Origin: Zunongwangia mangrovi
Lineage (GTDB): Bacteria > Bacteroidota > Bacteroidia > Flavobacteriales > Flavobacteriaceae
Length of the DNA stretch: 64,000 nucleotides
Direction: 5' to 3'
NCBI RefSeq assembly: GCF_900112105.1
Contig: NZ_FOKV01000006.1
Location: 1-64,000, forward strand
In this document: piece by piece, positions 20,334 through 25,042 of the stretch
Position numbering within the stretch: position 1 is the stretch's first letter
How the letters are laid out: the number at the start of each line of letters is the position of its first letter
The notes under the pieces: generated by a model
Seen by the model: the letters and a program-made list of their open reading frames with translations, nothing else
Database searches by the model: none
Told to the model about the DNA's origin: nothing
Position numbers and translations under genes: made by a program

Positions 20334-20341
20334 TACATTTG
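20334..20341 (+). promoter_or_regulatory. TAnnTTTG promoter element before rpsO
   Basis: TACATTTG, 53 bases before the rpsO ATG, suggesting a leader of about 45 bases. Confidence 0.55.
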
Positions 20342-20393
20342 CGGCCTGACAGAAAAGCTGTCAATACATAAAAATCATTTAAATAATATTGGA

Positions 20394-20663
20394 ATGTATT
20401 TAACTAAAGAAAAGAAGGAAGAAATCTTCGAAAAGTACGGAAACGGTAAAAACGATTCTGGTTCAGCTGAAGGACAAATTGCATTATTCACTTACAGAAT
20501 TTCTCATTTGTCTGAGCATTTAAAAAGCAATCGTAAAGACTTCAACACAGAGCGTTCTCTTGTTGGTCTTGTAGGAAAAAGAAGAAGACTTCTTGATTAC
20601 TTAATGAAAAAGGATATCATGAGATATCGTGCGATCATTAAGGAATTAGGATTAAGAAAATAA
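20394..20663 (+). CDS. rpsO: 30S ribosomal protein S15
   Basis: 89 residues, normal S15 length, all-helical primary 16S rRNA-binding protein. Signature stretches are GSAEGQIALFTYRISHLSEHL and LVGKRRRLLDYLMKKD. Followed by a strong terminator and then pnp, the widespread rpsO-pnp order. Confidence 0.97.
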   Translation: MYLTKEKKEEIFEKYGNGKNDSGSAEGQIALFTYRISHLSEHLKSNRKDFNTERSLVGLVGKRRRLLDYLMKKDIMRYRAIIKELGLRK

Positions 20664-20911: not shown

Positions 20912-23107
20912 ATGATTCCAAAAACATTTAAGGAGGTTATCGATTTAGGAGATGGTAGAACCATTTCTCTCGAGACCGGTAAATTGGCAAAACAGGCTCA
21001 TGGTTCTGTTGTTGTACAAATGGGTAACGCAATGTTACTTTGTACTGTAGTGTCTTCGTACACGCCAACTACAATGGATTTCTTTCCATTAACATTAGAT
21101 TACCGTGAAAAATTTGCTGCTGCAGGACTTTTCCCTGGAGGGTACTTTAAAAGAGAAGCAAGACCAAGTAGCGAAGAAATTTTAGTAATGCGTTTAGTAG
21201 ACCGTGTACTGCGTCCACTTTTCCCTAAAGACTATAAATTTGAAACTCAGGTAATGATCCAGTTAATGTCTCATGACGACGAAGTTATGCCAGACGCATT
21301 AGCAGGACTTGCCGCATCTGCCGCTATTCAATTATCAGACATTCCTTTTGAAACTCCAATTTCAGAAGCAAGAGTTGCAAGAATTAATGGCGAATTTGTT
21401 CTTAACCCAAGTAGAGAGAAACTGGATGAAGCAGACATGGATATCATGGTTGGTGCTTCTGCAGACTCTGTAATGATGGTTGAAGGACAAATGGACGAAT
21501 GTTCAGAAGAAGAAATGGCAGAGGCTATTAAATTCGCACATGAAGCTATTAAAGTTCAGTGTGAAGCTCAAACCAAACTTGCTGAAGCATTTGGCAAAAA
21601 AGAAACTCGTGAGTATGAAGTAGCCGAAACAGATGAAGATCTTGAAAAGAAAATTCATGAAGCTACTTACCAGAAAGCATACGATATCGCTAAAGGCGGA
21701 ACTAGCAAAAAAGAAAGAAGTCAGGCTTTTTCAGATCTAAAAGACGAAGTATTGGCTATGTTCTCTGAAGAAGAATTAGAAGAGAAAGGTAAAATGATCT
21801 CTGGTTATTTTGCTGCTGCTCATAAAAATGCTGTTCGTGATCTTACACTAAAAGAAGGAATTAGACTTGACGGTAGAAAAACCGACGAAATTCGTCCAAT
21901 TTGGTGTGAAGTTGATTATTTACCTTCTCCACATGGTTCTTCTGTATTTACCAGAGGAGAAACTCAGGCGCTTGCTACTGTAACTTTAGGTACGTCTCGT
22001 GAGGCTAACCAGGTAGATCTTCCAACTTATCAGGGTGAAGAGAATTTCTACTTACATTATAACTTCCCTCCTTTCTCTACCGGTGAAGCATATCCTATTA
22101 GAGGAACTTCAAGAAGAGAGATTGGTCACGGTAACTTAGCGCAAAGAGCATTAAAAGGAATGATTCCTGCAGATTGCCCTTATACCGTGCGTGTTGTTTC
22201 TGAAGTTTTAGAATCTAACGGTTCTTCTTCTATGGCAACTGTTTGTGCTGGCACAATGGCTTTAATGGATGCAGGGGTTCAGCTTAAAAAACCAGTTTCT
22301 GGTATCGCTATGGGATTAATTTCTGATGGTGAAGATTATGCTGTACTTTCTGATATTCTTGGTGATGAAGATCACTTAGGAGATATGGACTTTAAAGTGA
22401 CTGGTACTGCAGATGGTATTACTGCCTGCCAGATGGATATTAAAATTAAAGGACTTTCTTACGAAATCTTAGTTAAAGCACTTAAGCAAGCACGTGACGG
22501 TAGATTACATATTCTTGGTAAACTAACCGATACGATTGCAGAGCCTAATACGAACGTAAAAGGTCATGCTCCAAAGATCATCACCAGAAGAATTCCTGGA
22601 GATTATATTGGTGCATTAATTGGACCTGGTGGAAAAGTGATCCAGGAACTACAAAAAGAAACAAAAACAGAGATCGTTATTAACGAAGATCCTGTTACTG
22701 AAGAAGGTATAGTTGAAATTCTTGGTACAAACCAGGATGGTATCGATAAGGTTCTTGCTAAAATCGATTCTATTACCTTCAAACCAGAAAAAGGAAGCGT
22801 TTACGAAGTAAAAGTGATTAAACTTCTTGATTTTGGTGCTGTAGTAGAATACGTTGAGGCTCCAGGAAACGAAGTATTACTTCATATTTCTGAACTTGCC
22901 TGGGAACGTACTAATAATGTTACCGATGTTGTAAATCTTGGTGATGTTATCGACGTTAAATACTTTGGTGTAGATCCAAAGACCAGAAAAGAGAAAGTTT
23001 CGAGAAAAGCTTTACTTCCTAGACCAGAGCGTCCGGAACGCAAAGAAGGTGGAGATCGTAATCACAACAAACGTGATGATCGCAAACCAAGAGGAGATAA
23101 AAAATAA
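20912..23107 (+). CDS. pnp: Polynucleotide phosphorylase
   Basis: 731 residues with the full domain order: RNase PH-like domain 1 (about 1-220), alpha-helical linker (about 225-300), RNase PH-like domain 2 (about 310-550, [17 protein letters not shown]), KH domain (about 555-615, [20 protein letters not shown]) and S1 domain (about 620-690), then a charged basic tail rich in Arg, Asp and Lys. It degrades RNA 3' to 5' with phosphate. The 218 bases between the rpsO terminator and pnp may be its leader; they include an inverted repeat CCGTC/GACGG near 20830-20848. Confidence 0.97.
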
Positions 23108-23161: not shown

Positions 23162-23200
23162 TTGTTAATTGCATATCTGCAATAGATCATAATGAGGTGT

Positions 23201-23326
23201 AGTCATTCTGAACCTGCCTTGCCGGCAGGCAGATCTGATTCAGGGTCTCATCATAATAGTTCATTGTTCAATACAGTAAGAGATTCCGGATCAAGCCCGC
23301 CTGCCGAACGGGCAAGTCCGGAATGA
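23201..23326. repeat. REP-like palindromic pair between pnp and rpoD
   Basis: Two related elements in opposite orientation. The first (about 23202-23253) has CCTGCC (23213-23218)/GGCAGG (23224-23229) inside CTGAA/TTCAG. The second (about 23279-23326) has ATTCCGGA (23283-23290)/TCCGGAAT (23317-23324) around GCCCG/CGGGC (23295-23313). The reverse complement of the second lines up with the first (GTCATTC at one end, TCTC at the other), so they form an inverted pair like a bacterial interspersed mosaic element. Confidence 0.8.
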
Positions 23327-23410
23327 CGAAAACAATGAATTATTACAAATTAAGGATATTCAGATTATTTTTTATTTTCTTTTTTCTGAATAAAATCGCA
23401 ATCTTCTTTT

Positions 23411-23507
23411 CGCGTTAGGGATTGGAGCGAAAAGCCCGTAGTTGCTGCAAGCAACGCGGACTTGCAGCAGAAAGCCCGACCCAAAATAAGTATTTTGGGT
23501 AACGCCC
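23411..23507. ncRNA. Candidate structured RNA or repeated intergenic element upstream of rpoD
   Basis: A compact element closed by GCGTTA (23412-23417)/TAACGC (23500-23505). Inside are a stem GCTGCAAG (23444-23451)/CTTGCAGC (23461-23468), and a hairpin ACCCAAAATA (23479-23488)/TATTTTGGGT (23491-23500) that touches the closing stem. The motif GAAAGCCCG occurs twice (23430-23438 with one extra A, and 23470-23478). A competing hairpin GTTGC/GCAAC (23441-23455) overlaps the first stem. Similar AGGGAT...GAAAGCCCG...AACGCCC segments recur, as far as I remember, in flavobacterial intergenic regions, where they also create false ORFs. Strand and function are open. Confidence 0.5.
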
Positions 23508-23592
23508 AAATAAAAATTAAATAAACATTTTGTAACATTTTTTGATCTTCTTACGTATAAACATATACAAGAGCTATTCACAATTAAAACCC

Positions 23593-23605: not shown

Positions 23606-24469
23606 ATGAGACAACTTAAAATTACGAAGCAGGTAACTAACCGTGAAACTGCTTCGCTAGATAAGTATTTGCAAGAAATTGGTAAAGTAGATTTAATTAC
23701 CGCAGACGAAGAGGTAGAATTAGCACAAAGAATTAAAGCGGGTGATAACCGTGCTTTAGAGAAATTAACCAAAGCGAACTTACGTTTTGTGGTTTCTGTA
23801 GCAAAACAATATCAAAACCAGGGATTAACACTTCCCGATCTTATAAACGAAGGTAACTTAGGGCTTATAAAAGCTGCGAAACGTTTTGATGAAACTCGTG
23901 GTTTTAAATTTATATCTTATGCCGTTTGGTGGATTAGACAATCTATCTTACAGGCATTGGCAGAGCAATCTCGTATTGTACGTTTGCCACTTAACAAAAT
24001 TGGATCTATTAACAAGATCAATAAAACTTTTGCTTTCTTAGAGCAATCTCACGAGCGCCCACCAAGCGCCGAGGAAATTGCAAAAGAGCTTGATATGACG
24101 ATTAATGACGTTAAGGAGTCTATGAAAAACTCTGGTCGTCACGTATCGATGGATGCTCCTTTGGTAGAAGGTGAAGATTCTAACCTATATGATGTATTAC
24201 GATCTGGTGAATCTCCAAACCCAGATAAAGATCTTTTACATGAATCGCTAAGAACAGAGATTGAGCGTGCTTTAGAAACGCTTACTCCTCGTGAAGCTGA
24301 TGTTATTCGCTTATATTTTGGATTAGGAGATCAACACCCTATGACGCTTGAAGAAATTGGCGAAACTTTTGATCTTACTCGTGAGCGTGTAAGACAGATC
24401 AAAGAAAAAGCGATTAGAAGATTAAAACATACATCTCGCAGTAAGATTTTAAAAACCTATTTAGGTTAA
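23606..24469 (+). CDS. rpoD: Primary RNA polymerase sigma factor, sigma-70 family
   Basis: 287 residues. Region 1.2 ([20 protein letters not shown]), region 2 with the -10 recognition helix and the core-binding stretch ([20 protein letters not shown]), region 3 ([20 protein letters not shown]) and region 4 with the helix-turn-helix [20 protein letters not shown] are all present. Region 1.1 and the large non-conserved insert of the E. coli protein are absent, the normal short form of the housekeeping sigma factor in Bacteroidota, which reads TAnnTTTG promoters. The gene stands alone between unusual non-coding regions. Confidence 0.95.
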
Positions 24470-24471
24470 AA

Positions 24472-24597
24472 ATATTTAAGATGACAACAGTTTAGTGGTG
24501 GGAGTGATGACCCAACCATGAAAATAACTGTTCGTTTTTTGATTGATGAATGACCCCGGAGTGATGACCCGGGGTCGCTTCATTTATAAGCTTTTGT
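24472..24597 (+). repeat. Double-hairpin element, copy 1 (directly after rpoD)
   Basis: 126 bp repeated at 24917-25042. First hairpin: AACAGTT (24486-24492)/AACTGTT (24526-24532), inner stem GGTGGG (24497-24502)/CCCAACC (24511-24517) with one bulged A, loop AGTGATGA; a CGTTTTTT tract follows, so it can terminate rpoD. Second hairpin: GACCCCGG/CCGGGGTC near 24552-24576, with the same AGTGATGAC loop, extended by TGAA/TTCA. Confidence 0.85.
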
Positions 24598-24916
24598 AAT
24601 TTTAAATAAACTCAAGATTTAGCCTCAAAAATTGAGCTGTTCACAAGTCTGATTTACTTTCTACATTCAAAATCATCAAAATCGAAATTTAGATTTTAAT
24701 ATTTTTTTATACTTGCTAAATTCTATTTTTATTAAAATTGTATAGAGACGAAACGTTTCTAAATATTTAAAAAGATTAAAGTTAAATTAAAATTTATTGT
24801 TTCTAAATGAAACTTATTAAATTTGAAACTGATTTACGCTGAAGTCTTTTAAGCCAAAAAAATGGCCAGACTTTTGCTTAAATTAAATTATTGAGATTGA
24901 AAATTTAGAATTAAAG
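24598..24916. other. AT-rich spacer without genes between the two double-hairpin copies
   Basis: 319 bases, very AT-rich, no convincing reading frame on either strand and no tRNA-like fold seen. It contains GTTTCTAAATATTTAAA and TGTTTCTAAATGAAAC, loose local repeats of GTTTCTAAAT, but nothing that can be named. Confidence 0.6.
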
Positions 24917-25042
24917 ATATTTAAGATGACAACAGTTTAGTGGCGGGAGTGATGACCCGACCATGAAAATAACTGTTCGTTTTTTGATTGATGAATGACC
25001 CCGGAGTGATGACCCGGGGTCGCTTCATTTATAAGCTTTTGT
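24917..25042 (+). repeat. Double-hairpin element, copy 2 (upstream of the BLUF gene)
   Basis: Identical to copy 1 over 126 bp except C24944 in place of T24499 and G24959 in place of A24514. These two positions face each other in the first hairpin, so a T-A pair has become C-G. It ends 72 bases before the BLUF start. Confidence 0.85.

Follow-up and report, generated by a model that had tools for sequence, protein, structure and literature searches.

A conserved two-hairpin element behind rpoD in Flavobacteriaceae: a probable small RNA gene with predicted pairing sites at start codons

A duplicated two-hairpin unit follows rpoD

The window (the whole 64,000-nucleotide stretch of Zunongwangia mangrovi DNA that was analysed) contains rpoD, whose product spans sigma-70 regions 1.2 to 4 according to its Pfam domains, followed on the same strand by two copies of a structured unit. 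The features of the locus are as follows.

23606–24469, + strand: rpoD, primary sigma-70 factor, 287 aa, 5′ of the element (Sigma70_r1_2, r2, r3 and r4 matches)
24466–24597, + strand: copy 1 of the duplicated unit, made of a 5′ part, hairpin 1, linker and hairpin 2 (repeat comparison and fold)
24486–24532, + strand: copy 1 hairpin 1, with outer stem AACAGTT/AACTGTT (24486–24492 with 24526–24532) and a genus-type inner hairpin at 24495–24519 (fold and relatives)
24527–24553, + strand: copy 1 seed/linker ACTGTTCGTTTTTTGATTGATGAATGA, antisense to the start regions of other genes (genome matches)
24546–24583, + strand: copy 1 hairpin 2, with GC core 24552–24576, loop AGTGATGA and a genus-type lower stem (fold and covariation)
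24911–25042, + strand: copy 2 of the duplicated unit (repeat comparison and fold)
24931–24977, + strand: copy 2 hairpin 1, whose inner hairpin (24940–24964) holds the C24944–G24959 pair (fold)
24972–24998, + strand: copy 2 seed/linker, same letters as in copy 1 (copy comparison)
24991–25028, + strand: copy 2 hairpin 2, with GC core 24997–25021 (fold)

The initial annotation described two 126-nt copies, and this holds to the base: the stretches 24472–24597 and 24917–25042 differ at exactly two positions (T24499/C24944 and A24514/G24959). The full duplicated block measures 132 nt (24466–24597 and 24911–25042) and adds a third difference (A24471/G24916). The predicted folds of both copies are far more stable than those of dinucleotide shuffles (z = −5.8 and −5.7; 0 of 200 shuffles equalled either), the inner hairpin within hairpin 1 is of the GC type in the window copies, and each copy contains GGAGTGATGACC twice, which makes four occurrences in the window as a whole (0.03 expected at one mismatch or less). 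The two substitutions within the 126-nt copies had been read as a compensatory pair. Pairing in copy 2 is real, but the second change was not strictly required: because T24499 can pair with either A24514 or A24515 (AA, with a one-base bulge), it is compatible with compensation without demanding it. One-base bulges are predicted at 24514 in the fold of copy 1 and at 24960 in that of copy 2.

Six Ts do stand behind the first stem (24535–24540), as had been noted, and this stem may terminate rpoD. Hairpin 2 of copy 1 is probably a terminator, despite the poor T-run that follows hairpin 2 in the window genus. Terminator-like sites were called in both copies (two found, 0.2 expected), and a sigma-70 promoter scan between the copies returned four sites vs 3.4 expected. 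The stretch ATGAAAATAACTGTTCGTTTTTTGATTGATGAATGA was also considered as an 11-codon ORF, and this coding reading was rejected on the grounds that its ATG frame is not kept in relatives outside the genus (by eye).

The first reading of the sequence could put no family name to the unit, and Rfam 15 likewise gives no match to the element over the gathering threshold; at relaxed thresholds the best hit was snoRNA-like (17.5 bits vs a cut-off of 45). The sole Rfam family found in the window is the S15-Flavobacteria ribosomal protein leader (RF03161; 77.6 bits; 20334–20396), which lies before an 89-aa frame (20394–20663). Two palindrome-rich stretches are present between pnp and rpoD (23196–23340 and 23426–23510), one of them with CCTGCC...GGCAGG, and by eye they resemble dispersed repeats.

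Distribution in the family and linkage to rpoD

A DNA search of 149 genomes, Z. mangrovi included, returned matches in 67. Each of five further genomes of the window genus (G001–G005) has two or three copies, with rpoD directly upstream in the G001–G004 loci (the fetched G005 locus ends before reaching rpoD); duplication of the unit is a feature of the window genus, and the copies are not peculiar to the window. Outside the genus, rpoD lies just upstream in 23 of the 24 fetched loci, the remaining one (L021) starting at a contig end. The exact 21-nt core was found in at least 119 stretches of named contigs; of the matches listed (81 in 80 named loci), 73 stand behind rpoD. The question raised in the initial annotation, whether homologues sit behind this gene, is answered positively by both the listed core matches and the fetched loci.

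A covariance model (R1) was built from 18 of the 29 sequences of alignment A1, namely the rows with a short hairpin 1 that form alignment A2, because variable inserts misaligned hairpin 1 in the full alignment; two A2 rows were kept despite flaws (L016, with its 5′ end cut, and L032, out of register in stem 1). The model matches 145 of 199 family genomes, or 144 of 198 genera. An order-wide draw gave matches in 27 of 196 genomes: 25 are in the family, and the two outside it (E = 0.0017 and 0.0084) have a plain terminator behind rpoD. In the class-wide draw, six of 198 genomes match, comprising Z. mangrovi itself, three of genus g161 (which we infer to be Flavobacterium) and two marginal ones. 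Outside the family, matches to the element appear to be marginal only. Two g161 loci (L096 and L101) have degenerate partial copies just before the intact element, and in the partial copy of L096 the linker stops after GATTA and runs into another repeat.

A covarying hairpin 2 and a constant linker

In the 18-sequence alignment, hairpin 2 comprises nine pairs with 100% of cells paired, of which five are changed on both sides, and two positions show four pair types each; variation that fails to keep pairing was thus not seen in this hairpin across the 18 genomes. Hairpin 1 shows little variation, with 92% of its cells paired in the same alignment. Covariation over the whole structure reached 0.274 vs 0.089 when shuffled (0 of 500 as high), and slid controls gave 0.086 or less. 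The selection on RNA structure proposed in the initial annotation is supported, mainly by covariation in hairpin 2 of the relatives, whereas hairpin 1, being mostly invariant, says little about it.

Of the 24 relatives outside the genus, 22 have five or more Ts in a row behind hairpin 2, and TGAT in the loop of this hairpin is invariant in the 26 sequences of alignment A3. The loop of hairpin 1 is short in 18 of the 24 relatives outside the genus; the other six carry an inner hairpin or a longer insert, and L014 alone among them repeats the loop of hairpin 2. The design of one loop capping two different stems, true of the window copies, is therefore local and not general, and the window version with its repeated loop is a local elaboration.

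What stays constant is the linker of about 24–27 nt that joins the hairpins, ACTGTTCGTTTTTTGATTGATGAA. It is invariant in the 29 A1 sequences, a figure biased upwards because these sequences were found through the linker. Its variants are GATTGA in genus g161 and GAATGA or GAAAGA elsewhere. The linker is predicted to be partly to mostly open in three folded relatives and only partly open in copy 1 of the window genus. Comparison of the relatives shows a conserved predicted structure of two hairpins joined by a constant linker, with a covarying hairpin 2 that usually has a T-run. The first reading of the window overlooked the part most likely to carry the function, which is this linker, antisense at many start codons (see below).

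Could this anatomy be that of a mere transcription terminator of rpoD, with one or two hairpins and T-runs, locally duplicated and conserved for structure? Hairpin 2 is GC-rich, and both the T-runs in the relatives and the terminator-like calls in the two window copies fit such an account, as do 15 family genomes without the element, in which rpoD is followed by a plain terminator and no seed. A terminator, however, would not require a conserved loop, a constant linker carrying GATTGATGAA behind the T-run, or the antisense copies of the linker at start codons, which are rare in genomes without the element. We consider this explanation very unlikely.

Antisense copies of the linker at start codons

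In the Z. mangrovi genome, the 117-nt unit has 25 non-self matches, 23 in the linker part and two in the tail, and the two tail matches fall inside open frames. For 20 of the 23 linker matches, the antisense strand has an ORF of at least 40 aa whose ATG lies at −16 to +45 nt from the site end; the other three have none. Predicted linker duplexes average −24.8 kcal/mol for the 20 targets vs −10.7 kcal/mol for 40 window genes, a comparison that is descriptive since the targets were chosen by complementarity. Among the window genes, the best linker duplex is at the start of pnp (window position 20912; −19 kcal/mol).

Sites with up to two mismatches to ATCAATCAAAAAACGAACA were then collected from 18 other element-bearing genomes (100 sites fetched). 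In 81 of the 100 sites, a frame of at least 60 aa has its ATG within −22 to +60 nt, and in 65 within −10 to +25 nt. On the opposite strand, 4 of 100 sites were start-adjacent; for random positions the figure was 12% (2653 draws from the same stretches), and for the reversed pattern 6 of 18. The reversed pattern is the fairer yardstick, because start regions favour A-rich sequence, and the difference from it is significant (Fisher's exact test: p = 1e-4), with the caution that all site-based p values given here are optimistic because related genomes share sites. Among the 64 leaders with a start 0–40 nt behind the site, a spacing of exactly 3 nt between site and ATG is the most frequent (25 leaders). 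In these 64 leaders, the bases past the site lean to GTT (G in 30, T in 47, T in 36), extending the match to AACTGTT of the element, and upstream of the sites no base preference stands out; conservation within the 19-base site itself is by construction, as the sites were picked by pattern. Mismatches at the C positions of the site show no wobble-keeping preference by eye, the pairing-breaking change of G to A at a G position being about as common.

Among the listed exact matches to the 21-nt core, eight lack rpoD: two are further copies of the element (by eye) and six are antisense sites. These six, on five named contigs, end 2–4 nt before an ATG, and one of the frames has just 28 codons. In L314, L361 and L165, a 28-codon frame (MRTL..N...WN.KRR.R, stop) starts a few nucleotides behind the antisense site, and it may encode an unnamed leader peptide or very small conserved protein. 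Three antisense sites were seen within one 8-kb stretch of Flagellimonas allohymeniacidonis (L202), where one leader also has GTAATCAGCAGG, containing the complement of the hairpin 2 loop of the relatives.

Nine of the 100 cross-genus sites fall inside sense ORFs, and five of these are in M56/BlaR1-like frames by eye (L302, L322, L336, L340 and L358), where the motif is spelled out by codons for HSLIKKRIVM or a similar peptide. In-frame sites of the same kind in the Z. mangrovi genome are L003, L004 and L435; M56/BlaR1-like frames carrying the target motif were recognized by eye at C14:142749, C11:51492 and C25:1012623. These sites, one of which fits the motif without mismatch over 23 bases, may be a coding coincidence or real in-frame sites, and they were not counted as good targets.

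Comparison of the genomes shows predicted antisense copies of the linker that stand in fixed orientation at start codons, mostly 3 nt before the ATG, in element-bearing genomes. This bears on the idea that the element acts at the DNA level, either as an operator or promoter motif of a regulon or as a mobile repeat spread by transposition. Such an origin would suit the two or three nearby copies in the window genus and the degenerate partial copies in two g161 genomes. The sites are oriented one way (81 vs 4 of 100), though, and lie so close to the ATG that an operator or promoter would be unexpected there; moreover, 23 of the 25 non-self matches are to the linker and not to the hairpins, and phage and plasmid collections hold no match to the element. 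We therefore regard a DNA-level element as extremely improbable.

Sites and element occur together, and sites follow linker variants

Counts over 51 genomes used the same pattern, with the reversed pattern also run as its own query. Non-self sites numbered 131 in 21 element-bearing genomes, or 6.2 each (reversed: 0.43), vs 1.1 each in 15 family genomes without a model match (reversed: 0.40) and 0.2 each in 15 genomes of other families (reversed: 0.2). Site counts with and without the element differ significantly (Mann-Whitney: p = 2e-6, uncorrected for kinship). One of the family genomes without the element (G271) nevertheless has six sites, and among the residual sites in family genomes without the element two of the nine loaded ones are start-adjacent. 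Overall, the counts argue that the sites and the element occur together.

The fit between seed and target was examined with the pattern CNNTCATCAATCAAAAA in 48 genomes, 44 of which have a match. In the GATTGA lineage, 27 of 30 sites outside the element have CAATC, as the linker predicts (two have CTTTC and one CAGTC), and CATTC is found in 0 of 30. In the GAATGA lineage, five of nine sites have the predicted CATTC, the others being CAATC (two) and CCTTC (two). The GAAAGA lineage gave the predicted match in one of four sites, with no clear seed-target fit, and four GAATAA-type genomes have no match to the pattern. The covariation of seed and target has p = 8e-5, with one of the CATTC sites (that at C11:51492) inside an M56-like frame.

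These results also bear on a reversed direction of control. On that view, the leader motif ATCAATCAAAAAACGAACA before the ATG would generally enhance translation or bind a protein, and the element linked to rpoD would serve as an antisense decoy or sponge, itself regulated by those mRNAs. The motif is A-rich, as is favoured for initiation in Flavobacterium johnsoniae (PMC6847099), and the reversed A-rich pattern is start-adjacent in a third of its occurrences, and both fit such a role. A general leader, however, should not fall near background in genomes without the element, as this motif does; its non-A parts (ATCAATC and CGAAC) match the linker, and the bases before it track the linker variant, clearly in one lineage and partly in a second. 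A decoy is in our view highly improbable.

Predicted target genes

The 74 cross-genus targets outside frames, grouped by N-terminal motif with Pfam applied to examples, include PadR regulators (12), MacB/FtsX permeases (9), DUF2807-type (6), SusC-type (6) and CarboxypepD_reg-type proteins (4), ABC ATPases (3), DUF4252 proteins (2) and GLPGLI-type proteins (Pfam Porph_ging; 2). The remaining 30 fall in no group, and many of them have a hydrophobic N-terminal stretch. By a crude measure that can be taken as supportive, N-terminal hydrophobicity was found in 48 of the 74 cross-genus and 16 of the 20 Z. mangrovi targets vs 17 of 40 window genes. Envelope genes appear to dominate among the predicted targets.

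A site stands before padR in 14 of 18 genomes from which sites were fetched and also in Z. mangrovi, where padR is followed by a gene for a PspC/LiaF-type protein and, further on, one for a DUF2807 protein. In 13 aligned padR leaders (13 genomes of 12 genera, chosen for having the site), ATCAATCAAAAAATGAACAGTTT forms an island with few changes in variable surroundings, and the padR sites end 24–29 nt before the ATG. A set of 13 loci (10 of genus g161) encodes PadR, MacB-type ATPases, a serine-hydrolase-like protein and others, with no metalloprotease recognized by eye.

The last point is relevant to whether the element is an RNA already described from the family, namely Rfp18 of Flavobacterium psychrophilum or another Rfp RNA of the same study. 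Rfp18 is likewise a structured sRNA with predicted mRNA targets, conserved in other Flavobacterium species (PMC9723704). It is predicted to target metalloproteases and an adhesin, a deletion mutant has lower levels of two protease mRNAs, and pairing is described as occurring via a third stem-loop (PMC9723704), in contrast to the two hairpins and linker seed found here. Judged by the description of Rfp18, we consider identity with that RNA, or with one of the 85 new Rfp RNAs of the study, unlikely.

A proposed small RNA acting beside start codons

The reading that we favour, and hold to be very probable from the comparative evidence, is that the unit behind rpoD encodes a small trans-acting RNA, which would block translation of mainly envelope genes through pairing of its linker beside the AUG. 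Because the linker is antisense to the start sites of many envelope genes, the element probably controls their translation. Two features expected of an sRNA can be recognized in the sequence itself: a conserved seed complementary to several mRNAs, and a 3′ terminator hairpin of its own (from the covariation of hairpin 2 and the T-runs in the relatives).

The RNA would be released by processing of the rpoD 3′ UTR, with a promoter of its own in some lineages. The simplest route is release from the rpoD transcript, because 86 of 141 distinct cases have hairpin 1 starting 8–42 nt past the stop codon of rpoD and only nine of 141 upstream regions contain promoter-like sequence (1.2 expected; relaxed Bacteroidota-type consensus). 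The linker would then act as the seed, pairing over about 15–27 nt with the A-rich region preceding the AUG, which is favoured by the ribosomes of this phylum. The mRNAs of the phylum are described as having no Shine-Dalgarno sequences, and adenines at −3 and −12/−13 promote initiation in F. johnsoniae (PMC6847099); a block of initiation would be the likeliest effect, because the seed would cover the A-rich stretch that promotes it. Such pairing would lower the synthesis of mainly envelope proteins, the proposed regulon comprising the PadR-PspC operon, MacB/FtsX-type ABC transporters, DUF2807-type surface proteins, TonB-type receptors and lipoproteins. That the direction is repression we infer from the position of the sites and from the precedent of FopS, discussed below.

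Searches of the Z. mangrovi genome gave 0 matches to Hfq (control positive in five of 14 genomes), 0 to CsrA (control positive in three of 14) and 0 to RRM_1 of the RbpB type (control positive in Bacteroides ihuae); since none of them was found, pairing would work without Hfq, CsrA or an RbpB-type RRM protein. A partner, if there is one, might bind the conserved loop of hairpin 2. A bolder version would make the 3′ end of the rpoD mRNA a master regulator, giving rise to an sRNA that, with no known chaperone, forms duplexes of up to 27 nt in fixed register next to the AUG and governs a family-wide envelope regulon including PadR-PspC, with the loop of its terminator hairpin as the landing site for a new Bacteroidota RNA-binding protein; this we put forward tentatively, as something possible that we rather doubt.

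Significance

Less is known about post-transcriptional control in Bacteroidota than in bacteria that have Hfq. The element is a family absent from Rfam 15, about three in four genomes sampled from a large environmental family carry it behind rpoD, and it ties the primary sigma factor gene to the composition of the envelope if the proposed targets hold. Its long constant seed points to a directly testable list of targets, and the leaders with recurrent sites are suited to reporter tests. Because some members of the family are without the element and nearly all of its sites, they offer a natural comparison. An rpoD-linked sRNA was not described in the literature searched, which covers part of the published work.

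Comparison with known systems

Intrinsic terminators share the anatomy of hairpin 2 with its T-run, to which the element adds a conserved loop, a constant linker and antisense sites elsewhere in the genome. In enterobacteria, the sigma-E-dependent RNAs MicA and RybB silence many envelope mRNAs near their start codons, each with one short seed, and they need Hfq and a sigma-E promoter. The likeness here is that one seed would serve many envelope starts; the differences are the lack of an Hfq match in Z. mangrovi and the linkage to the gene for the primary sigma factor.

Closer in taxonomy are FopS and GibS. FopS RNAs of Bacteroides thetaiotaomicron are about 65–70 nt long and multicopy, one member deriving from a 3′ UTR, and FopS-10 blocks initiation on a susC mRNA (PMC11697453). 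FopS and GibS are described there as short RNAs from taxa said to be without classical RNA chaperones; they silence outer-membrane and other mRNAs by pairing next to the start codon, which blocks translation (PMC11697453). Pairing at the starts of outer-membrane protein mRNAs is matched here by position and antisense complementarity. In contrast, the FopS/GibS seed is at the 5′ end of the RNA (PMC11697453), whereas here the putative seed lies between two hairpins, and FopS and GibS are bound by RbpB, an RRM protein (PMC11697453), a type with no RRM_1 match in the Z. mangrovi genome. The passages on FopS and GibS mention no link to rpoD, and model R1 finds only marginal matches outside the family.

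From these descriptions, the element appears to differ from FopS in two features (the 5′ seed and RbpB), and equating it with Rfp18 does not seem to be supported by the description of that RNA. It would be unusual in its location after the primary sigma gene, in having a seed both long and constant, and in its recurrent set of envelope targets in a genome in which no Hfq was found. As the proposed mode of action resembles that of known start-codon sRNAs, we file it as a new family of the start-codon type.
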